A stretch of DNA of 64,000 nucleotides from Pycnococcus provasolii (Eukaryota > Chlorophyta > Pseudoscourfieldiophyceae > Pseudoscourfieldiales > Pycnococcaceae), in the NCBI GenBank assembly GCA_938743325.2, contig OW568883.1, positions 124,001 through 188,000 on the forward strand, read 5' to 3'. The position numbers were made by a program, and so were the translations under genes. How positions within the stretch are numbered: position 1 is the stretch's first letter; every line of letters begins with the position of its first letter. This document shows positions 2,544-45,715 of the stretch, piece by piece. A model generated the notes under the pieces. That model made no database searches. It was not told the DNA's origin and was given only the letters and a program-made list of their open reading frames with translations.

Positions 2544-5500
2544 ATGTCGGATCCCTCGTCGTTGTCTCTGTCGTCTCTATCGTCTTATTTGTCGACGCTA
2601 TACTCAAGTGGCTCGTCCTCGTCCGATCGTCGCGCGTCCGAATCCTACCTATCTTCCTTTCAGTCATCCGTGGCGGCGTGGTCGCTCTGCGATGCTGCAC
2701 TCCACTCCGGCGCGTCGGGGCACACTCCTCTGGGGGGATCCTCCGGTCCTTCCGTCTCGCTTGAACTGTTGATTTTCTGTGCGCAAACGCTCAGACAAAA
2801 GTGCAGCGCGGACTTCGAGGAACTTCCCCCACAGGCGTCGCTGCAACTTCGCGACTCGTTATTTGTGTTGCTCGCGAAATACGCCGCAGGACCAACCGCG
2901 ATACGGACCGCGCTCTGCGTCGCCATCGCCGCCGCTGCGACACACCTACCGTCAACTGCGTGGGAATCTCTTGGACTCATACAGTGGAGCGTCAACAAAC
3001 TCGCATCCTTGACTTCCACGAACCTAGTCGACGCAATCATGAACCTACTGCAAGTCATACCCGAGGAAGTCGGATCGACGCGCGTCGCAGTCAAACCCGC
3101 ACGTCGACGCGCGTTCGAGGCGGAAGTCAGAGCCGCCGCGCCGGACGCTATCAACGCAATCACAAACGCCGCGCAATCCGCGGCAAGCCCCGACGCCGCT
3201 GCAGCCGCACTCAGAAGCTACGCAACGTGGCTCCACCTCGCTGGCTCAAGGTGCTTCGCGGGAGGCGTCGCAGGACTTGCCGCACACCCCGTGTGCAAAG
3301 CCACCGTTGACGCACTAGCTGGCGACCCAGACGGCGTCGTGTTCGAAGGTGCGATCGACACGGCGGTAGAATTGCTAAGGTGCGCCTCGGTGAGCCAGTT
3401 TCTTCTCACCGCAGAAGAGGGAGAAGTTGGCGCAGCGCCCTCAATGGAACAGGCGCGAAGCGCCGCCGCCGCCGCCGCGCCCATCGCACAGGCTGTCGCA
3501 GCGCGCGCGCTCGAGCTCAAGCCTCGCCTCGACAAACTCATCGCAGAAGACCCTGACGACGTCGAGTCTGCCAAGCCACTCGCGCGCATTTTCGCAGAAG
3601 TAGGCGAGGTGTTCGTGGAACAGATCGCAACAGCGACGCCCGAATTTGCCGCACCCGCGGAGGCACTGCTCGCCGTCGCGAGACATCCCGATTCCGGTGT
3701 GGCGGAGATGGCGGCAGTATTCTGGTTTGAGCTGCAGAGGAAGCTGCTCTCATCCCTCGAGGCACGCGGCATAGACGCCATCGAGGCGGATCGGCGAAGG
3801 GCGTTCTTCGCACCAGCGTTCAGCCAAGTGCTCGCCGCCACCGTCGTACGCCTGCGATACCCAAAAGGCGACGAGGAGAGAACGTGGACGGAAACGCAGC
3901 GACGCGAGCTTAGGCAGCAGCGCAATTACATGACAGACCTCGTGCGATCTTGCGCGGCTCTTCTCGGAGCGTCGGAAACACTCAAGCAGCTTGGCACCGC
4001 GGTGGCCGCGACGCATGAGGGCAGAGCTGGATGGGAGGAGGGAGAGGCGGCTCTCGCCATTGCGTGCGACGCCGCGCACGTGCTCCCACTCTCTGGCGCA
4101 TTTCCCGGCGATGCGCAGATCGTTGGCGCCTTTCTTGCAGCCGTTGTCGCGGCACCCGACGCGCTCGTCGTGCAGCGACCTCTTCTGCTGGAGCAGGCGA
4201 CGATGTGCTGCGGTTCGTACGCCTACTGGCTTGCAGATATGCTCGAGCGTGAGGAGACTGGCGCCGCCGACCTGCTCTCGCACGTTCTCACGCTGTGCGC
4301 CAAAGGAATCGCACTTGGGGGAAATGCCGCGTCGAGTGCAGCACACGGCCTGATGAAAACGTGCATGGCGTGCGCAAAATTTGTCAGCTCGGAGGCGACT
4401 CTTTCGAATCTGCTGAAGCTCTACGCCTCCACGATCGAGGCTTACCTAGGCGCCGCCGCCGCCGCCGCCGCCGCGAATTCAACGACGGCATCGGCAGCAC
4501 CGCCGGCTTCAAACAATCAAATCGACAAGTGGGCGATGCAGGACGTCACGACGGCGCTCACGAGTGCTGTCGGCGCGCTAGGCGATCCGAAGCAGCGCGA
4601 ACAGGGATTCCTCGCAGTGATCGATCGCCCGACGGCGGTGCTTAACTCCGCATCAGCATCGCCACCTTCCACGCTGATCAGCGCGCAGAAGCAGCATGCT
4701 GCACAGTGCCTTCGTGCGGCGCTTAGTGGCATGGACGCTTACCCATCCATTGTCGCCGGCGCTCTCAGCTGGCTCTGGCCTACACTCGAGAAGGCAATCG
4801 AGTCGAGCCTAGGCGACGAGAACACCATCGAGGATCTATGCAAGGTGGTCAAGTACGGGATTAAGGCAAGCGGGTATCCTCACGCAGCTCAGCTTTTGCC
4901 GCAGTTGCTTGCCACGCTACCTCGTGCGTTTGCAAGGCACCCCCACGGACCCATTCTTCTCGTGGCATCGGAGCTGACAAAGTCGCTCGGTGGTCATGTG
5001 GACAAGTGCGCTCCCGAGGCATGGGACGTCAGCCTTGGCGAGGTGGTGTGCTCCATCCTCTCTAACAGCCTTTCGCGCTTTCCATCCCCCCAGATGGTGG
5101 ACGAAAACCCGCATCTTGCCGACGACACGTACCTCCTCGGCGGCCGCGCCGTCAGCTACTGCGCTCGCCACGTCATTGCGAGGCCGGACCTCATCGCGCT
5201 GATGCTCGACGTCGGCGCGATCAGCTGCGTCTGCAAGCACGTCGAGGCGGGCATGAGCGCATGCATGATGATTTCTAAGCTGTGCAACTCAGAAGACTTG
5301 CGCCGGAGCGGTGCCATCACACAGGCACTCGCACCCCCACGTGGGCCGCGCACGCTCAGCCGGCTTTTGGCTGTGATAGCAGGCGCCGCGCCGCGCCGGC
5401 GCGTGCACGACGCCAGCGATGCCATTCAGGCGATGTACGAGTGCTTGAGCATTGCCAATATGGGCGCACGTGAGTGGCTCGTCATGGCTCTGCAGGCTGT

Positions 5501-9967: not shown

Positions 9968-12295
9968 CTAGCTCGACTTAAAGCCAGCAGGTGTCGTGGG
10001 ATGCGGGTTCAACGCCTCGGCCATCGCGCGCTCGCTCCAGCGGTTCGCAAGGCGATCGTCCGATCCCTTGTCCGTGTACCACTCGATCGTGCGCTTCAGA
10101 CCTTCCGCCCAGCTCGTCTTCTCCGTCCAGCCGAGCTGCTCAAGCTTCGAGTTGTCGATGTAGTACCTTCTGTCGTTGAACAGACGGTCCTGAACAATCT
10201 CGAGCTTGTCGGACGCGGCGTCCGAGCTCATGCTACCAACCTCGCCACCCTTCATCACCGCGAGGATGTCCGCCGCCGTCTCGCGCACCGTGCGCTCCTT
10301 CGGCGACCCGATGTTGTACGTCTCGCCAATCACGCCGTGCACCAGCACGGTCTCGAACGCCTCCGCGACGTCCTTCACGAACAGAAACGACCGCCGCGAG
10401 TGCCCGCCGCCGTGCAGGGGCAGAGACCGGCCCTGCGACGCGAGCATGATGAACTTCGGAATCACCTTCTCCGGGAACTGGCCAGGGCCGTACACGTTGT
10501 TGCCTCGCGTCATCAGGCAAGGCAGCTTGTACGAGTCCATGTAAGCCTTCACCTGCATCTCGCCGCCAGCCTTCGCCGCCGCGTACGGGTTCGTCGGAGC
10601 CAGAACGCTCTCCTCCGTCACGCCGGCGTCCGCCATGCTCGGGTTCATCGTCTCGCCGTACACCTCGTCCGTCGACACGTACACGAACTTGCGTATGCCG
10701 CCGTACACGCGGCAAGCCTCGAGCAGGTAGTGCGTGCCTAGGACGTTGTGCTCCGTGAACGTCACGCTGTTCAGGAAACTGTTGTCAACGTGGCTCTGCG
10801 CCGCGAAGTGCATCACCGTGTCGACGTTCTCCGTGACGAGCACGTGCTCGACGAGGTCGACGGCGCGTATATCGCCGCGTACAAACTTCAGGTTCGACGA
10901 CACGACGCCGTCGTCGTCCTCGAGGTTACGCACGGAGCTGACGTAGTCCATGCGGTCGATGACGATGATCTTCGCGTCAGGGAACGTCTTGGCGAGTCGC
11001 ACGGCGACGTGCGATCCGATGAAGCCTGTCCCTCCGGTGAGGAGCAGCGAGCGAGGTTCGTACGGCGCATCTTTGTCATCTGGTTCAGCAGGAGCAAGCT
11101 CGTTCAGCGGCGTGCCCGAGTATGTCACGCGCAGTGATCTCAGACCACCCGTAGGGTGGCTCTGCGGGTGCGGGTCAAGTGCCTCGGCCATCGCGCGCTC
11201 GCTCCAGCGATGCGCAAGGCGATCGTCCGATCCCTTGCCCGTGTACCACTCGATCGTGCGCTTCAGACCTTCCGCCCAGCTCGTCTTCTCCGTCCAGCCG
11301 AGCTGCTCAAGCTTCGAGTTGTCGATGTAGTACCTTCTGTCGTTGAACAGACGGTCCTGAACAATCTCGAGCTTGTCGGACGCGGCGTCCGAGCTCATGC
11401 TACCAACCTCGCCACCCTTCATCACCGCGAGGATGTCCGCCGCCGTCTCGCGCACCGTGCGCTCCTTCGGCGACCCGATGTTGTACGTCTCGCCAATCAC
11501 GCCGTGCACCAGCACGGTCTCGAACGCCTCCGCGACGTCCTTCACGAACAGAAACGACCGCCGCGAGTGCCCGCCACCGTGCAGGGGCAGAGACCGGCCC
11601 TGCGACGCGAGCATGATGAACTTCGGAATCACCTTCTCCGGGAACTGGCCAGGGCCGTACACGTTGTTGCCTCGCGTCATCAGGCAAGGCAGCTTGTACG
11701 AGTCCATGTAAGCCTTCACCTGCATCTCGCCGCCAGCCTTCGCCGCCGCGTACGGGTTCGTCGGAGCCAGAACGCTCTCCTCCGTCACGCCGGCGTCCGC
11801 CATGCTCGGGTTCATCGTCTCGCCGTACACCTCGTCCGTCGACACGTACACGAACTTGCGTATGCCGCCGTACACGCGGCAAGCCTCGAGCAGGTAGTGC
11901 GTGCCTAGGACGTTGTGCTCCGTGAACGTCACGCTGTTCAGGAAGCTGTTGTCAACGTGGCTCTGCGCCGCGAAGTGCATCACCGTGTCGACGTTCTCCG
12001 TGACGAGCACGTGCTCGACGAGGTCGACGGCGCGTATGTCGCCGCGTACAAACTTCAGGTTCGACGACACGACGCCGTCGTCGTCCTCGAGGTTACGCAC
12101 GGAGCTGACATAGTCCATGCGGTCGATGACGATGATCTTCGCGTCAGGGAACGTCTTAGCGAGTCGCACGGCGACGTGCGATCCGATGAAGCCTGTCCCT
12201 CCGGTTAATAGGAGTGACGTCGGCGTGTACGGCGCGACGGTTTGCGCGTGGTACTCTTTTAAGGAATCCGTCACGGCCATCGCGCCCTTGCCCAT
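9968..12295 (-). CDS. Tandem-fused double nucleotide-sugar 4,6-dehydratase (RmlB/RHM-N type)
   Basis: 775 residues built from two near-identical copies of an extended short-chain dehydrogenase that converts NDP-glucose (dTDP- or UDP-) to the 4-keto-6-deoxy sugar, the first step toward rhamnose. Copy 1 spans about residues 27-389 and copy 2 about 416-775, offset by exactly 389 codons (1167 bp). Each carries the NAD-binding GGTGFIGSH, the catalytic TDE (residues 153-155 and 542-544) and the YxxxK pair (Tyr182/Lys186 and Tyr571/Lys575), so both halves look active. Most differences sit at the extreme N-terminus, the linker and the C-terminus. Plant RHM also starts with this dehydratase but is fused to an epimerase/reductase, not to a second dehydratase. 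ATG at 12295. Confidence 0.9.
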   Translation of the reverse strand: MGKGAMAVTDSLKEYHAQTVAPYTPTSLLLTGGTGFIGSHVAVRLAKTFPDAKIIVIDRMDYVSSVRNLEDDDGVVSSNLKFVRGDIRAVDLVEHVLVTENVDTVMHFAAQSHVDNSFLNSVTFTEHNVLGTHYLLEACRVYGGIRKFVYVSTDEVYGETMNPSMADAGVTEESVLAPTNPYAAAKAGGEMQVKAYMDSYKLPCLMTRGNNVYGPGQFPEKVIPKFIMLASQGRSLPLHGGGHSRRSFLFVKDVAEAFETVLVHGVIGETYNIGSPKERTVRETAADILAVMKGGEVGSMSSDAASDKLEIVQDRLFNDRRYYIDNSKLEQLGWTEKTSWAEGLKRTIEWYTGKGSDDRLAHRWSERAMAEALDPHPQSHPTGGLRSLRVTYSGTPLNELAPAEPDDKDAPYEPRSLLLTGGTGFIGSHVAVRLAKTFPDAKIIVIDRMDYVSSVRNLEDDDGVVSSNLKFVRGDIRAVDLVEHVLVTENVDTVMHFAAQSHVDNSFLNSVTFTEHNVLGTHYLLEACRVYGGIRKFVYVSTDEVYGETMNPSMADAGVTEESVLAPTNPYAAAKAGGEMQVKAYMDSYKLPCLMTRGNNVYGPGQFPEKVIPKFIMLASQGRSLPLHGGGHSRRSFLFVKDVAEAFETVLVHGVIGETYNIGSPKERTVRETAADILAVMKGGEVGSMSSDAASDKLEIVQDRLFNDRRYYIDNSKLEQLGWTEKTSWAEGLKRTIEWYTDKGSDDRLANRWSERAMAEALNPHPTTPAGFKSS
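10010..12217 (-). repeat. 1167-bp intragenic tandem duplication
   Basis: Two tandem units inside the dehydratase gene, at roughly 10010-11050 and 11177-12217, are almost identical at the nucleotide level over about 1 kb, including third codon positions. That means a very recent duplication or continuing gene conversion. Confidence 0.9.
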
Positions 12296-37266: not shown

Positions 37267-37596
37267 GGAGGTGGCGGCAGCGTATTTCCATCCCACATGG
37301 CACCGCCGGCGCCGCCGGCTATTCGTGGCAGCCAAACACCGAGCAACGGCGTACGTGTCGAGCAACTTGGCTCGGTGGCGAACACAGCATGTGCCAAGCT
37401 TCGCACGATTGTTGTTCAGATGATGACGGAGGCAGGCTTCGACGCAGGAGATGTGGAGAATATGCAGATTGCCCCGATCGACTCGCTGCTGAGTATCAAG
37501 ATGACGGAATTAGTGAACTACTGTATCACCACGATCCGCGAAAGAGCAAATATAGCTGGTGAAAGAGCCGCGCAAGCGGCACTCGGTACACAATAA
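35428..37596 (+). CDS. MORC-family GHKL ATPase with CW zinc finger
   Basis: 722-residue MORC protein; relatives are nuclear ATPases that compact chromatin and silence transposons. The Gly/Ala-rich first 55 residues are low complexity. The GHKL ATPase follows: AIAELVDNALDSGV (Glu86, Asn90 for Mg-ATP), MDNGPGID (121), and GQYGNGFKSGSMRLADDAL (149). The S5-fold transducer extends to about residue 430. A CW finger lies at about 475-525, with VLWVQCDFPQCLKWR and later SWFCHMHPD giving the four-Cys pattern; CW domains usually read histone H3 K4 methylation. A charged coiled coil (about 545-595), a poly-Gly run (about 612-625) and a C-terminal helical region complete it, like MORC3/4 organisation. 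ATG at 35428. Confidence 0.93.
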
Positions 37597-37741
37597 GCAT
37601 GCTGGGAAGGAATAACAAGAAAAAAGCAATTGTGTAAAACCAAACCCTTGTCCGAACGAGGTGTGGTGGTGGATGTGAGTTTTGTAGAAAGACAATTTCA
37701 TAGTCTAAAGTTACAGAGAAAGAACGGCCGTACGAAGAGCC

Positions 37742-38554
37742 TTAGAAGAGCAGGTCGTCGTCAGCATCACCCACGGCACCGCCAGCCTCTAACAGGCTGC
37801 TTGCTGCCGTCGCTTGCTCAGCCAACTGCGCCTTCTCCATGTCCTTCTTTTTCTTCGCCTGCACCTTCTTGAGACGAAAAAACTCCTCACGCTCAAGTTC
37901 GTCGAGCTCGCTCTTGATGTAAGCCACTGTGTTCGCCAAACGTGGCTTGACAACGTTTTCAAGCGCGTTCACGCGCCGGTTCGTGGTTCTGATAGCCTCG
38001 TCGAGTGCGGCGAACGACGTCTGCAGGCTCGCCATCTCCACGTACAGCCGCGTAAGCTCCGCGTACCAGCCAGCTGCACCGTGCAGCTGCTGTCCTCCTT
38101 TCGCAAGTCCAGCGAGCTCGAGCTGTTCTGGAAGCGCGACAGGTCTATTTTGCTGTTGGCTGTCATCTCCCGCTCCTCCTCCTGCCGCGTTCCCACCTCC
38201 TCCGACGAGTGTGTACACGGGCAGTTGCACACCGGCGACGTTATCGGTGGACGGCTCCACTTTAACGAGCGCTTTGGATGACGACGCGCCGTCTAAGATG
38301 GTATGTTTGATTTGTTCTCCACACGCGAATCTGACTTGAAGCATGGAGAATGACGCTTCTCCACTACTTGCGGAAATGCGCTCAGAGAGTGCTTCGAGAC
38401 GTTTGACTAACAAACGGAATCGTAACGTGAGTGCATCAGCTTTTTTCTTTAACAAAGCGTGTCCTTTGGATGCGCCAAGTAAACGCGTCTTGATGACAGC
38501 TAAGACTGTCACGGTGGGTGCGACACTTAAACGCGACTGACCAGACGAACTCAT
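37742..38554 (-). CDS. VMA8: V-type proton ATPase subunit D
   Basis: Central-stalk rotor subunit of the V1 sector that acidifies vacuoles and endomembranes. 270 residues from the ATG at 38554; the frame stays open 25 codons further upstream, but that extension is encoded by a duplicated 30-bp sequence and should be 5' UTR. SVAPTVTVLAVIKTRLLGA, GHALLKKKADALTLRFR and the C-terminal TTNRRVNALENVVKPRL, then DELEREEFFRLKKVQAKKK, are all strong V-ATPase D signatures. The variable middle has a Gly/Ala/Gln insertion (VGGGGNAAGGGAGDDSQQQ). Length is close to the normal 245-260. The insertion of repeated DNA immediately upstream may affect its promoter. Confidence 0.95.
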   Translation of the reverse strand: MSSSGQSRLSVAPTVTVLAVIKTRLLGASKGHALLKKKADALTLRFRLLVKRLEALSERISASSGEASFSMLQVRFACGEQIKHTILDGASSSKALVKVEPSTDNVAGVQLPVYTLVGGGGNAAGGGAGDDSQQQNRPVALPEQLELAGLAKGGQQLHGAAGWYAELTRLYVEMASLQTSFAALDEAIRTTNRRVNALENVVKPRLANTVAYIKSELDELEREEFFRLKKVQAKKKKDMEKAQLAEQATAASSLLEAGGAVGDADDDLLF

Positions 38555-38598
38555 TCGAGCAATGACGACGCCGACGCCGATGAAAATGGGTAACTTTA

Positions 38599-38628
38599 AT
38601 AAACCCGAGGACCCAAACAATTCTGCCA
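38599..38628. repeat. 30-bp direct repeat, copy 1 (possible target-site duplication)
   Basis: Identical to 38860-38889. Lies 45 bp upstream of the V-ATPase D start. The two copies flank 231 bp that include one 152-bp hairpin repeat. Confidence 0.8.
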
Positions 38629-38709
38629 AAAGGTCAAATGACGTGGTTACAACCCAAAATTAAATCCTGAATGGCCCCCAGCAACCCATAGTCAGGGCGG
38701 GCGGGTGGG

Positions 38710-38861
38710 AAAGGTTGCGCGAACAGCGCAACCAGCAGCAGGAATGGTGGTCCGAGGGAGACCACCTTAAACCCTAGCAGCCGAGCCACCCCGCGGCTCG
38801 GCACCTCAGAGGGGGCCCTCTACCGTTTACCCCGACTAAACCTTTCGGTAGAATCGTACAT
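38710..38861 (-). repeat. 152-bp direct repeat, copy A, with chain of hairpins
   Basis: Identical over 152 bp to 39957-40108. Hairpins: 8-bp stem 38713-38720/38726-38733; 7-bp stem 38746-38752/38760-38766; 8-bp stem 38780-38787/38795-38802; and a stem CTACCG 38820-38825/CGGTAG 38846-38851 extended by TTTA/TAAA. The listed orientation follows the neighbouring gag-like ORFs. Confidence 0.9.
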
Positions 38862-38889
38862 AAACCCGAGGACCCAAACAATTCTGCCA
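38860..38889. repeat. 30-bp direct repeat, copy 2
   Basis: Exact match to 38599-38628. It overlaps the last two bases of the 152-bp copy A and lies just beyond the stop codon of the gag-like ORF (38892-38894). Confidence 0.8.
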
Positions 38890-38891
38890 TC

Positions 38892-39815
38892 TTAGACTCC
38901 ACCTGCAGCACCGTGCGGCGCACCGCGCGGCGCTGCTGGCCCAGCCGCCGCAGCGGGATGAGACAGAGCAGGAAGAAGATGTCCAAAGAAGACAGCAGCA
39001 GCAGCATCGGCTTGAACAGTAGGGTCGATGTAGTGCTGTATGAGAGCGGTGGAGCCTGGAGCCCATCCGCCAATGTATTCGATGCGAGACATGGTCCCAG
39101 CCGCCTTTTTAGCGGCTGCCTTCGCAATAGCAGTTGCGAAGTCCGAGTCGAACGTTCGAGAAAACGTTTGCGCGCTGTCAGACAACAGTGGTGCCTGAGC
39201 TGATTCTACGTCGAAGAGAGCCTCTACCGCTGCACGCTTTTCCGGCGCGATCGCGTAGTCAGGAGCACCCTTCACGTACAAGAAATCGTTGAGTTCGTTG
39301 AGCCTCGAAAGGATCCCAGTGGCAGTGTTAAGCGTCCGGTCAAGAGTCGCGGAGCGTTGAGCGAGCACCGGCCTAATTCTGTTTCGCCAAGCAGCTGCGT
39401 CCTCGCCAGCTAGAGGGGCTAGACCGTCCTCGAAGTTTTGACCGTCAGCTATGACGTCTCCCAAAGCGGATACAACAAGCTCGAGGTAAGCACCAGCTGT
39501 ACGCGATCGCCGATACGTCCACACCTGGTGCTTAGACTTGCGTCTAGAGTACTCGGTTATGGCAAGATCGTTATCAAGGCGAAGCGGGTTGACTGCACCT
39601 TGACGACCAACACCGTCGCGAGGGAAAAGATCAGCAGAGACGACCTCCTCGAAATCCCTCGGAAGCAAATAGTTAAGCTGCACCGGCTGTTGTCCTACAG
39701 GCGCAACAGCTCTGCCTTGGGCCTCAGCCACAGCTTGATCACGTTGAGCTTCCGCAATCTGCAACTGCAAACGCAAGGCCACAATCTCAGGTGGCTCTTG
39801 TGCAACAGCTGCCAT
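38892..39815 (-). CDS. Gag-like/capsid-like ORF of a repeat-flanked mobile element
   Basis: 307 residues from the ATG at 39815 (the open frame begins two codons earlier at TTG). It starts with a heptad-like helix (VALRLQLQIAEAQRDQAVAE), then a conserved-looking YLLPRDFEEVVSADLFPRDG, a mostly helical middle (KHQVWTYRRSRTAGAYLELV; RTLNTATGILSRLNELNDFL) and an Ala/Pro-rich end. This coiled-coil plus helical layout, absence of a known enzyme domain and position between two 152-bp direct repeats suggest a gag-like protein of a non-autonomous element. A shorter relative is at 40110-40403. No zinc knuckle is present. No family match can be claimed from sequence alone. Confidence 0.55.
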   Translation of the reverse strand: MAAVAQEPPEIVALRLQLQIAEAQRDQAVAEAQGRAVAPVGQQPVQLNYLLPRDFEEVVSADLFPRDGVGRQGAVNPLRLDNDLAITEYSRRKSKHQVWTYRRSRTAGAYLELVVSALGDVIADGQNFEDGLAPLAGEDAAAWRNRIRPVLAQRSATLDRTLNTATGILSRLNELNDFLYVKGAPDYAIAPEKRAAVEALFDVESAQAPLLSDSAQTFSRTFDSDFATAIAKAAAKKAAGTMSRIEYIGGWAPGSTALIQHYIDPTVQADAAAAVFFGHLLPALSHPAAAAGPAAPRGAPHGAAGGV

Positions 39816-39956
39816 ATGCAAGTGCCCTCAAGCACTTAATCAAAATCTCCTCGGAGTAGTAACTAAATCAGAAATCTCCTCGGAGTAACAAGATAGGTAG
39901 TTCACTTGTGAACTCCTCACGTCAGTGATCCCACGCGTCTCGACACGTGTGGCTGC

Positions 39957-40108
39957 AAAGGTTGCGCGAACAGCGCAACCAGCAGCAGGAATGGTGGTCC
40001 GAGGGAGACCACCTTAAACCCTAGCAGCCGAGCCACCCCGCGGCTCGGCACCTCAGAGGGGGCCCTCTACCGTTTACCCCGACTAAACCTTTCGGTAGAA
40101 TCGTACAT
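39957..40108 (-). repeat. 152-bp direct repeat, copy B, with chain of hairpins
   Basis: Exact copy of 38710-38861, offset 1247 bp. It truncates the second gag-like ORF, whose final codons (VRFYRKV then stop) are read from the repeat itself. Confidence 0.9.
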
Positions 40109-40403
40109 TAATTACCAAAGCCCAATCTAGGTGCTGAAGGACAGGGTTCGACGGCAAAGAAAGCAGTGTTGGCTTGCCACGACGCGGAATCCCAGTCGTA
40201 GGTAGCGACTCCGCGTGGCGAGCGTCCGGATAGCTGGCCGGCACCACGTAATCTAACGTAGGCTCGCCTCCTTCTTCGGCCGCTTTCTTGCCCTTCTGCT
40301 CTGCTTCTGCAGCTGCGCGGCGCTCCTGCGCTAGCGCAATCTCCAGCTGCAATATTTCGCGACGAGCTTCCAGAACCTCGAGTTCGTTCGGCGCGTCACC
40401 CAT
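40083..40403 (-). pseudogene. Truncated second gag-like ORF
   Basis: 106 codons from the ATG at 40403. Its start, LEARREILQLEIALAQERRA followed by AAEAEQKG, and then YVVPASYPDARHAESLPTTG align in order with the heptad helix and the YLLPRDF...ADLFPRDG block of the neighbouring 307-residue ORF. The homologous part stops about residue 90, and the last residues come from the 152-bp repeat, so the rest of the gene was lost or displaced by the repeat. Confidence 0.55.
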
Positions 40404-40733
40404 TAATCAATCGATTAAGAATCCAACAGTAAACTTCCAATCGAAGGTTGCTGATGTTTCGATCTAAACGTAGGTATTCAGACCGTTTCGGTACACGAAC
40501 TACGTCCCTCGAAGACGCGTTCGGCGTGTGTTCGACCTCCCACTACTCGCGTGTAGTGCGGCTGTTAGGTTGTTTGCGAAGCAAGCAACCAACAGCAAGA
40601 GTGGATACGCGCGAGCAGCCTTAAGGGAGAGGCCGCCGGAGGGTCTCGAGACCCGCCGGGCGGCCGCCCAGAACCAGCTGCGCGAGCGACTCCCCCTAAT
40701 CAAAAACCCCAATTAAACAAGTAGAACTGAAGA
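40404..40733 (-). repeat. Upstream region of the gag-like remnant with a diverged hairpin cassette
   Basis: Contains a diverged relative of the 152-bp repeat. The stem GGTTGTTTGC/GCAAGCAACC at 40568-40590 is followed by AACAGCAAGAGTGG, comparable to AGCAGCAGGAATGG after the first hairpin of copies A and B. A CCTTAA follows, then a long GC-rich hairpin at about 40631-40665. Order and spacing of elements are conserved although the bases differ. Confidence 0.6.
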
Positions 40734-40769
40734 TTAGGGTTAGGGTTAGGGTTAGGGTTAGGGTTAGGG
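40734..40769 (+). repeat. Interstitial telomeric repeat (TTAGGG)n, about six units
   Basis: Six consecutive TTAGGG units, perfect, ending in GGGCGTCTCG. On the minus strand, the orientation of the gag-like ORFs, it reads (CCCTAA)6 at the upstream end of the element cluster. It is the longest telomere-type tract in the window and suggests TTAGGG as the species' telomere unit. Confidence 0.9.
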
Positions 40770-40878
40770 CGTCTCGTTTTGTGTTTCTTTTTTTGGCGGG
40801 CCTCGCCCTCTCATTCTGTCATTCGTCTCGCTTGCAATCAATTTATGTCAGCTCGTTCATCATGTCCTCTTGTATCCC

Positions 40879-41826
40879 ATGAGTGACTTGTACTTAATAA
40901 GTAAGCCTTCCGACCTTCCTCACTGCGAAGGTGTCTATGTCGTGCGGTGCGGCGATTCTAAAAGCGTGTACGTCGGTGCCGCGTCTAACCTCATGAGAAG
41001 ACTTGGTGCATGGCACCACCCGTCTCCGTTCGTGCGTGCTCGTGGGGGAATTCAAGGTGTGGAAGCGCCCATCACACAGAGACAAAGTGGGTGGAGCTTA
41101 GAATATTGGGAAATGATGGAAACATTCGAGAGAGTGAGACGTCACGGTATCACACACACGAGAGGTTGGAAGTACACCAGGCCGGTATTAAGTTACTCGG
41201 AACTAGTCGGGCTGAGAGACGTTTGCGTGACGCTGCAAGACCTTTGCTTTAAGTGCGGCGCACATGGGCACTTCGCAAGCGAATGTGTGAGGGAGGACCG
41301 CGAACGCTGGCTTGAAGAGATCGACAACATGATTGAGAAGAGATTTGAAGAACTGATTGAGAAGAGGAGGCTTGGGCAGCCTGTTGCGAGCGATGTTTCT
41401 TCAGTGCCGCAAGTGTTCGTCAAGTGCGACCCTCTCGAGCCAAATTCTCCACCATCTTCGCAAGCAGCGCAAGCATCACCAACACTGCCGCCACCATCAC
41501 CGCCAGCTTCGACGCCGCGACTCGCGTTCGGTACAGGCGCTGCGCTTGCGCCTGACACTCCTCCTCGTCACGCGCGTTCCTCACAAGCCGCACCCGCGGG
41601 AAGCGGACCAAGGTGCCTATGGCAACTGCACGGGAGTTGCATTCGATGCGCTTGCACAATCAAGTACAACACGTCAAAGCCGTTTTGCTATGACTGTTTT
41701 AGGATATGGAATATGCATGCGAATCCCGAGTTCGACGAAAAGTTCTGCCATGCTTGCGGCGAGAGCGCGACGACGTGCTTCTCTTCGCCTGAATGCGAAG
41801 CGTGCGCGCCCTGCGCTCCGATGTAA
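40879..41826 (+). CDS. GIY-YIG nuclease-like protein with CCHC zinc knuckle and zinc ribbon
   Basis: 315 residues from the ATG at 40879 (frame opens three codons earlier at TTG). Residues 18-47 form a GIY-YIG core: GVY at 18-20, YVG at 31-33, then NLMRRLGAWH with the expected Arg40. Residues 96-102 (GWKYTRP) follow. A perfect CCHC knuckle, C123-x2-C126-x4-H131-x4-C136, comes next, then a charged helix, a Pro/Ala/Ser-rich linker and a C-terminal cluster of CxxC pairs (254/257, 270/273, 290/293; NTSKPFCYDC). GIY-YIG domains cut DNA; the knuckle and ribbon would bind nucleic acid. The family Glu is not obvious: Glu75, 78, 81 or 84 are candidates. The telomeric tract lies 110 bp upstream. Origin by transfer from a virus or bacterium is possible but not shown. 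Confidence 0.75.
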   Translation: MSDLYLISKPSDLPHCEGVYVVRCGDSKSVYVGAASNLMRRLGAWHHPSPFVRARGGIQGVEAPITQRQSGWSLEYWEMMETFERVRRHGITHTRGWKYTRPVLSYSELVGLRDVCVTLQDLCFKCGAHGHFASECVREDRERWLEEIDNMIEKRFEELIEKRRLGQPVASDVSSVPQVFVKCDPLEPNSPPSSQAAQASPTLPPPSPPASTPRLAFGTGAALAPDTPPRHARSSQAAPAGSGPRCLWQLHGSCIRCACTIKYNTSKPFCYDCFRIWNMHANPEFDEKFCHACGESATTCFSSPECEACAPCAPM

Positions 41827-41892
41827 CTGATCTTCACCACCTAAGGTGTAGCAAAATCATATTACTAAAACGAGCAATCACAGCTCACTTAT

Positions 41893-42585
41893 TTATTTGC
41901 GCGTCAAGCTACCTTTGACAAGTTCGTCCATCTCCTCGAAACTTATCTCGCTCTCGTCCGTCGCGTGCAACTCCACGCCAATGCCGTCCAAGTTCTGCTT
42001 CAAAAAGTCCTTCGTGCTCGCGTACAACATCTTGCTTTTGATTGGCGCATTGTCTGGACTCCAAAGCACAAACACGAGACGCGTGATTTTGCACCCGTCA
42101 CTGTTCGTCAGCTTGTGATCCCACACGGCGTAGCGACAGTCGGCGTCAGGCAAACTTTGCTCGAACGTGCCGTACTGCGCATCCTTGTCGCCGGCGTGCT
42201 CCACCACCACGCGGCCAAGGTTCTCGACCACCTTCATCACGAGAAAGCGGCTCTTCGAGCGCTTCACGGCCTGGTAAGCTGTTACGACTTCCGCATCCAC
42301 CTCCACGCCGCTGACACTCTTCCCGCCGATGGTCGGGCTGGATGCGCTAGGCAGCGGCTTAGGCGCCGTCGGCGCGGGTGCAGGTGCAGGTGCAGGCACG
42401 GGCGCGGGTGCGGGCGCGGGTGTCGGCGTCGGCGTTGGCGTCGGCGTCGTTGTCGTCTTAGAAATTTGCAGTTCACGAGCGAACACTTCACTTAGCACAC
42501 GAAGTTCATCCTTGGTTAAGTTCGCTTTCCGCGCTTCGGCCGCTAACGCGCATGCTAATGACCCGAACACTGATGGAAGAGACAT
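41893..42585 (-). CDS. ADF/cofilin with proline/alanine-rich N-terminal extension
   Basis: Actin-depolymerising factor: severs and recycles actin filaments in the cytoplasm. 230 residues against about 140 for ordinary ADF. The ADF-homology domain occupies the C-terminal 140: SGVEVDAEVVTAYQAVK, RYAVWDHKLTNSDGCKITRL, FVLWSPDNAPIKSKMLYAST and KDFLKQNLDGIGVELHATD are in canonical order, including the long actin-binding helix. Ahead of it are a short helical piece (about 1-42) and a Thr-Pro then Ala-Pro dipeptide repeat (about 44-73), an unusual linker. Typical Ser3/Ser6 phosphoregulation cannot apply in the same way because the domain's N-terminus is buried by the extension. Converges with the GIY-YIG gene (66 bp). 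Confidence 0.92.
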   Translation of the reverse strand: MSLPSVFGSLACALAAEARKANLTKDELRVLSEVFARELQISKTTTTPTPTPTPTPAPAPAPVPAPAPAPAPTAPKPLPSASSPTIGGKSVSGVEVDAEVVTAYQAVKRSKSRFLVMKVVENLGRVVVEHAGDKDAQYGTFEQSLPDADCRYAVWDHKLTNSDGCKITRLVFVLWSPDNAPIKSKMLYASTKDFLKQNLDGIGVELHATDESEISFEEMDELVKGSLTRK

Positions 42586-44129: not shown

Positions 44130-44239
44130 AGACGACATGATGATGACGACATGACATGACATGACACGATGAAGTTGCTGTATGTAAAAAACCAAGTGAA
44201 AAAAAAAAGAAAGGAAAAAGGAAAAAGTCAGTCACACAA

Positions 44240-45259
44240 TTACACAATTACAATCTCCGTCATGAATGGCGTGGCGTTGAGTTGTGCAACATCCGCTGGC
44301 GCCTCGCCGTCGTCGTTGTATCCCCAGCACGCGATGCGGCCGTCACTTCGCACCGCGAGTGAGTGATTACCACCCGCAGCGATCGCGACGAAATCTCCGT
44401 CCATGCCGTCGGGAGGCGCCTCGCCGTCGTCGTTGCTTCCCCAGCACGCGATCCTTCCGTCGCGTCGAAGCGCGAGCGAGTGAGCGGCACCCGCTGCGAT
44501 TGCGACGAAGTCGCCGTCGACGCCGTCGGGAGGCGCCTGGCCGTCGTTGTTGCTTCCCCAGCACGCGATCCTTCCGTCGCGTCGAAGCGCCAGCGAGTGA
44601 AACATACCCGCGGCGATCGCGGCGAATTCGCCTTCGACGCCGGCGGGAGGTGCCTGGCCTTGGTTGTTCAAGCCCCAACATGCGATGCTGCCGTTGCGTC
44701 GGATCGCCAGAGAGTGAGCGCCACCCGCGGCGATGTCGACGAAGTCGCCTTGTATGCCGTCCGGAGGCGCCTCGCCGTTGGCGTTGCGTCCCCAGCGCGC
44801 GATGCTGCCAATGCGTCGAAGCGCCAGGGAGTAATCTTCGCCCGCGGCAATCGCGACGAAGTCGCCGTCGACGCCGTCCGGAGGCGCCTCGCCGTTGGCG
44901 TTGCGTCCCCAGCACGCGATGCTGCCGTTGCGTTGCAGCGCCAACGAGTGTTCATAACCCGCGGCGATAGCGACGAAGTCACCGTCGACGCCGGCGGGAG
45001 GCGCCTGGCCGTCGTTGTTGGCACCCCAGCATGCGATCCTTCCGTCTTGTCGCACCGCCATCGAGTGCCGGTAACCCGCTGCAATGTTCATGTTGGCTCG
45101 CGACATTCTTTTGCGAAGCTCGTTACGTTCCTTGACAATTTCGATCCGGCGCGGCCTGTGCACCGCGACGAGCCAGTCGCGCCAGACGGCGATGGCACGA
45201 TCGCGGAGATTGTTCTCATCAAAGTCAAGGTCAAGGTCAGAGCCATCCCGAGGAGGCAT
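44240..45259 (-). CDS. RCC1-like beta-propeller repeat protein
   Basis: 339 residues. After a 60-residue charged N-terminus (DLDLDFDENNLRDRAIAVWR) come seven near-identical 38-residue RCC1-type repeats, consensus HSLALRRDGRIACWGSNNDG then GEAPPDGVDGDFVAIAAG, forming a probable seven-bladed propeller. The repeats are also nearly identical in DNA (114-bp unit), so they amplified recently. Classical RCC1 is the Ran exchange factor, but this short-loop, highly regular form is common among uncharacterised bacterial, viral and algal RCC1-like proteins; it lacks the extra insertions of true RCC1, so a Ran-GEF role is unlikely. ATG at 45259; converges with the glycosylase gene, 110 bp between stops. 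Confidence 0.85.
   Translation of the reverse strand: MPPRDGSDLDLDFDENNLRDRAIAVWRDWLVAVHRPRRIEIVKERNELRKRMSRANMNIAAGYRHSMAVRQDGRIACWGANNDGQAPPAGVDGDFVAIAAGYEHSLALQRNGSIACWGRNANGEAPPDGVDGDFVAIAAGEDYSLALRRIGSIARWGRNANGEAPPDGIQGDFVDIAAGGAHSLAIRRNGSIACWGLNNQGQAPPAGVEGEFAAIAAGMFHSLALRRDGRIACWGSNNDGQAPPDGVDGDFVAIAAGAAHSLALRRDGRIACWGSNDDGEAPPDGMDGDFVAIAAGGNHSLAVRSDGRIACWGYNDDGEAPADVAQLNATPFMTEIVIV

Positions 45260-45715
<456 letters not shown>

Follow-up and report, generated by a model that had tools for sequence, protein, structure and literature searches.

The 64,000-nt stretch of the Pycnococcus provasolii genome analysed here (hereafter the window) carries what is very probably a non-autonomous, internally deleted copy of a tyrosine-recombinase (YR) retrotransposon of the DIRS order, probably PAT/Toc3-like. 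With this assignment, the locus is settled as a split-repeat YR retrotransposon and not a new gag-only element, and it illustrates how a deletion can make a plausible-looking “gag gene”. The same genome holds dozens of young copies, each with both ends intact but with an internal deletion of its own, which bear on the timing of the deletions, as well as a family sitting at telomere-type repeats, which suggests sequence-directed integration by a YR retrotransposon. It thus amounts to a natural experiment on an order of retrotransposons that is still poorly understood.

The original prediction described two identical direct repeats enclosing a single gag-like ORF. The two 152-bp repeats (38710-38861 and 39957-40108) are indeed identical at 152 of 152 positions and lie 1247 bp apart, start to start, with a repeat-finding tool extending the pair to 155 nt at the cost of one mismatch. 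A whole-genome search with the 152-bp repeat yielded 18 matches including the window's two (16 full or nearly full length, 2 partial), distributed over 12 loci with the window included, so the repeat is not unique to this locus. The proposed bounds of 38710-40108 had to be revised: a 30-nt motif at 38599-38628, absent from the earlier description, recurs exactly at 38860-38889, directly after the left repeat, and because the sequence conserved in other copies starts at this motif and ends at the right-hand repeat, the element spans 38600-40107 (about 1.51 kb), with its genes on the minus strand. Read along that strand, the order is A1 (40107-39957), ORF, B1 (38889-38861), A2 (38860-38710), and B2 (38709-38600). 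The internal B1-A2 join, CGGGTTTA followed directly by TGTACG, is the join that the outer 3' and outer 5' ends would make in a circle. This combination of split direct repeats and a circle-type join points to a YR element of the DIRS order (PAT/Ngaro-type), and reading the repeats as the A repeats of such an element fits both their shortness and the absence of a target-site duplication. The features of the locus, for which the window's own family is termed family 1 and a second, related one family 2, are as follows.

38600..40107, minus strand: whole internally deleted element, family 1, with ends common to other genomic copies
39957..40107, minus strand: A1 repeat, gene-5' terminal, identical to 38710-38860; copies stop here and their flanks differ
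39093..39815, minus strand: gag part of the ORF, with ATG at 39815 (39821 if TTG is used)
39089..39093: internal deletion junction, at a boundary common with copy L012; exact microhomology 2 bp
38892..39092, minus strand: C-terminal 66 residues of the recombinase plus stop, in frame with gag, matching the L012 recombinase ORF
38861..38889, minus strand: B1 repeat, internal, directly abutting A2, identical to 38600-38628
38710..38860, minus strand: A2 repeat, internal, identical to 39957-40107
38600..38709, minus strand: B2 region, gene-3' end, an 81-nt stretch plus the terminal B motif (38600-38628)
40108..40125: 18-bp spacer that separates a truncated family-2 fragment from the family-1 end, found only here by exact search among the sequences compared
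40126..40735, minus strand: family-2 5' fragment, with A1 at 40567-40735 and the start of gag, 99.5% identical to copy L038 over 610 bp
40734..40769, plus strand: (TTAGGG)6 array, adjoining the family-2 fragment at its 5' end
37742..38554, minus strand: ATP-synt_D gene (PF01813, 2.4e-53)

Of the 10 genomic matches to the B2 region, 8 fall within the 12 loci of family 1. The window's GC content is 52-60%, compared to 70% for Cafeteria burkhardae (PMC8547959), which was rejected as the host on this ground. The 3' end of the element lies 45 bp upstream of the first host-derived in-frame Met of the ATP-synt_D gene, which we take to encode V-ATPase subunit D, in the same orientation, so that the former upstream sequence of this gene is now located beyond the element.

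A single ORF does lie between the repeats (38892-39821, minus strand), encoding 309 aa from a TTG or 307 aa from an ATG two codons on, and a Pfam search with it returned no domain at E <= 1. Its residues 1-243 are identical (243/243) to the 244-aa gag-like protein of L012, and its last 66 residues correspond to the end of the L012 tyrosine-recombinase-like ORF (69 of 76 residues identical over the matched stretch), including the putative catalytic Tyr (HYID). Compared to L012, 1.66 kb is missing at 39089-39093, namely the last codon of gag, the RT gene, and most of the recombinase. As predicted, the window element includes no polymerase, being a retroelement copy without RT, RNase H, and most of the YR. 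The gag-like character likewise stands for 243 residues, while the notion of a dedicated gag-only gene does not: judging from its sequence, the ORF is a gag-recombinase fusion created by deletion. The AF2 model of gag (pLDDT 51) is of insufficient quality for a capsid fold to be assessed. Six predicted proteins of Pseudoscourfieldia marina or environmental origin (P0014, P0017, P0020, P0023, P0024, and P0025) matched both the gag and the recombinase queries, hence gag-recombinase fusions are not confined to the P. provasolii assembly.

Two longer relatives reveal what the window copy has lost.

C2:710383-713555: L012, family 1, 3.17 kb, with gag, RT, and a recombinase-like ORF
C4:115324-120103: L038, family 2, full length, 4.78 kb, with A repeats of 169 bp identical to each other

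L012 is the largest family-1 copy, and no full-length one was found in the genome. Its RT (RVT_1, 5e-20) is 52% identical to that of L038, compared to 33% for the recombinase-like ORFs and 28% for gag, and its RNase H region is missing, as the RT frame runs into the recombinase frame. L038 encodes gag, a 673-aa ORF for RT-RNase H that ends in a methylase-like tail (RVT_1, 1.7e-16; RNase H, 4e-4), and a recombinase ORF. In both copies, recombinase and RT are on the same strand, and no zinc-finger match was found in gag (Pfam, E <= 1). The Pfam Dam model matches the tail of the L038 RT ORF, a region absent from the window copy, only weakly (E 0.04). It is precomputed in 27 of 120 listed relatives of this ORF. 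When L038 was aligned with 22 selected relatives, 19 of the 23 sequences matched Dam at E <= 0.01, L038 not being one of them; this count is biased, as 17 of the 22 are precomputed Dam carriers. Six peptide patterns retrieved no viral-contig relatives of the RT.

Since the Pfam Phage_integrase model (PF00589) has no match in the P. provasolii genome, even though it has matches in all 14 control genomes, the identification of the YR rests on motifs, fold, and homology. All 10 aligned YRs, several of which are close copies, have Arg159, Arg274, and Tyr308, but only 2 of them retain the His of the His-x-x-Arg motif, which is replaced by Lys in L038 and by Gly in L012. The L038 YR model has a mean pLDDT of 73, with ten-residue blocks at 77-98 between residues 111 and 330 except for 181-200, and in a Foldseek search it matches Cre with E 7e-7 and a TM-score (by query) of about 0.5, the matches to XerA, XerH, and the Tn1549 and lambda integrases being weaker.

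Family 2 provided the material to evaluate when such deletions arise. In a survey with L038 as the query, 40 of 83 candidates were scored, and 78 of the resulting 80 rows were combined into 41 groups, some of which include 12 to 865 bases of other or unaligned sequence. Both ends were found in 31 groups and one end in 10, and all but one of the 31 (the full-length copy) are internally deleted, with no two of these 30 sharing the same breakpoint pair when breakpoints are taken as BLAST limits. A random-deletion model based on the sizes of 25 single-join family-2 copies (median loss 2.9 kb of 4.78 kb) predicts that about 25% of incomplete groups would keep both ends, compared to 30 of 40 observed (P 8e-11). 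Because integration needs both ends, and both are kept beyond random expectation, we favour deletions that would have occurred before integration, an argument that draws on family 2 since only 6 of the 12 family-1 loci have both ends. The alternative, that host repair deleted existing copies after insertion rather than during replication, is unlikely but deserves weight: the junctions resemble end joining in their short microhomology (0-2 bp) and in the 12-base extra sequence at two joins, and one-ended copies do exist (10 of 41 family-2 groups, 6 of 12 family-1 loci). Against it stand the excess of groups with both ends and the many deleted copies that are 98-100% identical to full-length L038, and are therefore young. 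Deletions are also unlikely to be assembly errors given the 444-fold HiFi reads and QV of 58.2 reported for this assembly of strain CCAP190/2, ucPycProv1.2, which comprises 44 chromosomal scaffolds and two organelle genomes (PMC11130579). In Xenopus, Ngaro-like copies are described as degenerating mainly by loss of terminal repeats (PMC9210276), which is the opposite of the pattern seen in P. provasolii, where ends are kept and middles deleted.

Three further readings of the deletions were considered and rejected. Microhomology-driven template switching was suggested by BLAST overlaps of up to 5 bp, but exact counts are 0-2 bp, with a mean of 1.0 (10 of 13 junctions) vs a null mean of 0.73, the null being made on the family-2 element alone and the three negative junctions (mismatches or filler beside the join) being set aside. 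RNA splicing is not supported, as none of 9 exact junctions is GT..AG (the tenth, L047, being left out). Selection for in-frame fusions was addressed with 23 of the 30 deleted both-ended groups, groups with extra sequence or more than one join being excluded; in 4 of the 23, one side of the junction has no ORF, which leaves 19 testable junctions, 6 of them in frame (L038 coordinates). As this is close to the one third expected, the open frame of the window ORF looks like luck. The 5' breakpoints are not evenly spread: 8 of 23 fall within 50 bp in gag (592-640 in L038 coordinates), a clustering reached in 0 of 20,000 uniform draws, and the copies concerned are 96-100% identical to L038. Two family-2 5' fragments were also observed tail to tail, at C9:836719-838268 (plus strand) and C9:838270-839158 (minus strand).

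The two families differ in their surroundings. The lack of a clear target-site duplication, already remarked in the original prediction, extends to all 6 both-ended family-1 copies, whose flanks are often T/A-rich beside the element and display no longer common motif by eye. For family 2, flanks were read in 30 of the 31 both-ended copies (the C27 copy being left out). The 3' flank starts with AACCC in 24 of these (not in the other 6), the 5' flank ends with CCCTA in 15, and at least two CCCTAA occur in the last 50 bases of the 5' flank in 17, against a background of 0.08-0.09% of 51-base stretches of the 64-kb window, its own array included. In full-length L038, however, the 50 bases of 5' flank contain no CCCTAA. 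Three of the 30 copies (L047, L055/L056, and L087/L088) have flanks repeated over 16-35 bp, while none of 870 mismatched flank pairs reached a 14-bp repeat; these may be target duplications or older tandem units, and are unexplained by simple YR insertion. Contig C23 carries a CCCTAA array close to its start, and the first 180 bases of contig C1 contain none; we infer that TTAGGG is the P. provasolii telomere repeat. Taken together, we see about even chances that family 2 is a telomere-repeat-targeted YR retrotransposon, in which a circle junction joining CCCCCCCTAAA to ATCTTCAG would recombine with interstitial CCCTAA and nearly every insertion would be born deleted before integration, with the window element representing the same defect in a sister family. 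The apparent telomere-type targeting of family 2 may be new: a literature search, mostly without full texts, brought up no evident account of these elements in Pycnococcus, nor of an evident telomere-repeat-targeted DIRS-order element, PAT and Toc3 included.

The split repeats, the common ends, the relatives encoding YR, RT, and RNase H, the varied flanks, the near-identical copies, and the gag-YR fusion are observations, onto which a replication cycle can be proposed. Full-length relatives would supply gag, RT-RNase H with its methylase-like tail, and YR. The element would be transcribed, and reverse transcription, aided by the end-to-end junction already present internally as B1-A2, would give circular DNA, which the YR would insert by recombination at a short core, without target-site duplication. 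Deletion would take place before integration, by faulty reverse transcription or by end joining of the cDNA. As for the window copy in its present form, its intact ends would in principle allow it to move in trans, but only with proteins from another element.

Placement within the DIRS order relies on structural keys and not on a tree. The split-direct-repeat architecture belongs to PAT and Ngaro YR retrotransposons (PMC4157794; PMC8547959), and the key for Toc3-like PAT elements combines a methylase, a gag without zinc finger, and a recombinase on the RT strand (PMC4157794). The window element and L038 share the split repeats (A1-ORFs-B1A2-B2) with PAT/Toc3-like elements, along with a gag without zinc finger (as in Toc3 vs Pat1) and, in the relatives, a YR on the RT strand; a methylase-like tail on RT-RNase H may be a further one, Dam being weak in L038 (E 0.04). 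The absence of target duplication at copies of the window's family is another shared feature, and circle-junction integration without target duplication is described for DIRS1 (PMC3266345). Differences are that RT, RNase H, and all of the YR except its C-terminal 66 residues are missing from the window copy, and that family 2 sits at telomere-type repeats. Membership in the Ngaro group rather than the PAT group seems improbable. The A1-ORFs-B1A2B2 layout, with internal repeats downstream of the YR, is also that of Ngaro (PMC8547959; PMC4157794), the Ngaro elements of Cafeteria burkhardae share both this layout and the gene order, with ORF1-deleted variants and solo AB repeats described among them (PMC8547959), and Dam is below threshold in L038 itself. 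However, Ngaro elements are characterized as being without a methylase-like domain (PMC4157794), whereas a putative region of this kind ends the L038 RT ORF and aligns with proteins that Pfam calls Dam. The Ngaro elements are about 6 kb long vs 4.78 kb for L038, and breakpoints in P. provasolii vary between copies. Chlorophytes are moreover known to carry PAT-like families (PMC3266345), with PAT-like DIRS elements reported in Chlamydomonas relatives (PMC8226300), and a PAT/Toc3-like placement is the more probable one.

Whether the 1.5-kb form could be a family in its own right was assessed from the copies of family 1. Both ends are present in 6 of the 12 loci (the window, L009, L010, L012, L015, and L016), with interiors that are all different, and the other six (L011, L013, L014, L017, L018, and L019) are single ends or remnants. 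The copies are mostly 97-100% alike, which suggests recent activity. L016 has the same base change in both A copies, as expected if both are made from one template, while in L010 a one-base difference between the A copies counts against our preferred explanation. The new small element family proposed originally is not borne out by these data, as no two of the six both-ended copies have the same interior and L012, a larger copy, encodes RT and recombinase. A self-standing non-autonomous family, in which the deleted form was repeatedly mobilised in trans, is accordingly very improbable: intact ends and split repeats make such mobilisation possible in principle, and the similarity of the copies fits recent activity, but no other family-1 locus found has the window junction, the five other both-ended interiors differ from it, and in family 2 no two deleted groups have both breakpoints in common. 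Further observations concern three loci. At L011 (4726-4942), a 5' end is joined to an inverted 3' end. In L010, the end motif is interrupted by an 843-bp insertion (2711-3555) whose 116-bp inverted repeats are 99% alike and which is probably a small DNA transposon. A remnant on C7 (L091) has only about 60 bp in common with the window element.

The layout initially suggested, a TR-GAG element, i.e. a non-autonomous LTR element of plants (PMC6022998), with the 152-bp repeats as short LTRs flanking a gag gene, can practically be dismissed, since its likeness (two identical direct repeats around one gag-like ORF, without polymerase) is outweighed by the repeats being A repeats and not LTRs, by conserved sequence reaching 110 bp past the left “LTR” so that the repeats are not outermost, by a 30-nt end motif that recurs inside the element, by the recombinase tail on gag and the tyrosine-recombinase-like protein encoded by related copies, by the lack of a Pfam gag domain at E <= 1 in the window ORF and L012, and by the lack of a target duplication.

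The repeat, for which a chain of stable hairpins had been noted, folds better than shuffled sequences on both strands (z -4.3 on the plus and -3.4 on the minus strand). The L038 A repeat also folds better than shuffles on the gene strand (z -4.3), and both families display a hairpin at the inner edge of the A repeats (GGTTGCGC...GCGCAACC and GGTTGCTTGC...GCAAACAACC). These folds are suggestive of a conserved RNA signal, based on two independent families only. Self-cleaving ribozymes and other known RNAs were considered and rejected: three weak Rfam matches in 37500-42000 (E 1.2-4) are all far below gathering scores, and none is located within the repeats.

Several other genes were noted along the way. 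A 775-aa ORF at 9968-12295 (minus strand), which presumably resembles an NAD-dependent sugar dehydratase/epimerase, consists of two nearly identical halves, reflected in a 1040-bp direct duplication that is 98.75% identical. At 40870-41826 (plus strand), a 318-aa ORF that combines a GIY-YIG nuclease domain with a CCHC zinc knuckle starts about 100 bp from the TTAGGG array, and could be another mobile-element gene. Finally, a gene made of 117-bp repeat units, which we assume to be RCC1-like, is located at 44239-45271, and an 82% identical relative of it is found at 6665-7679 of L012, beside the element copy there.
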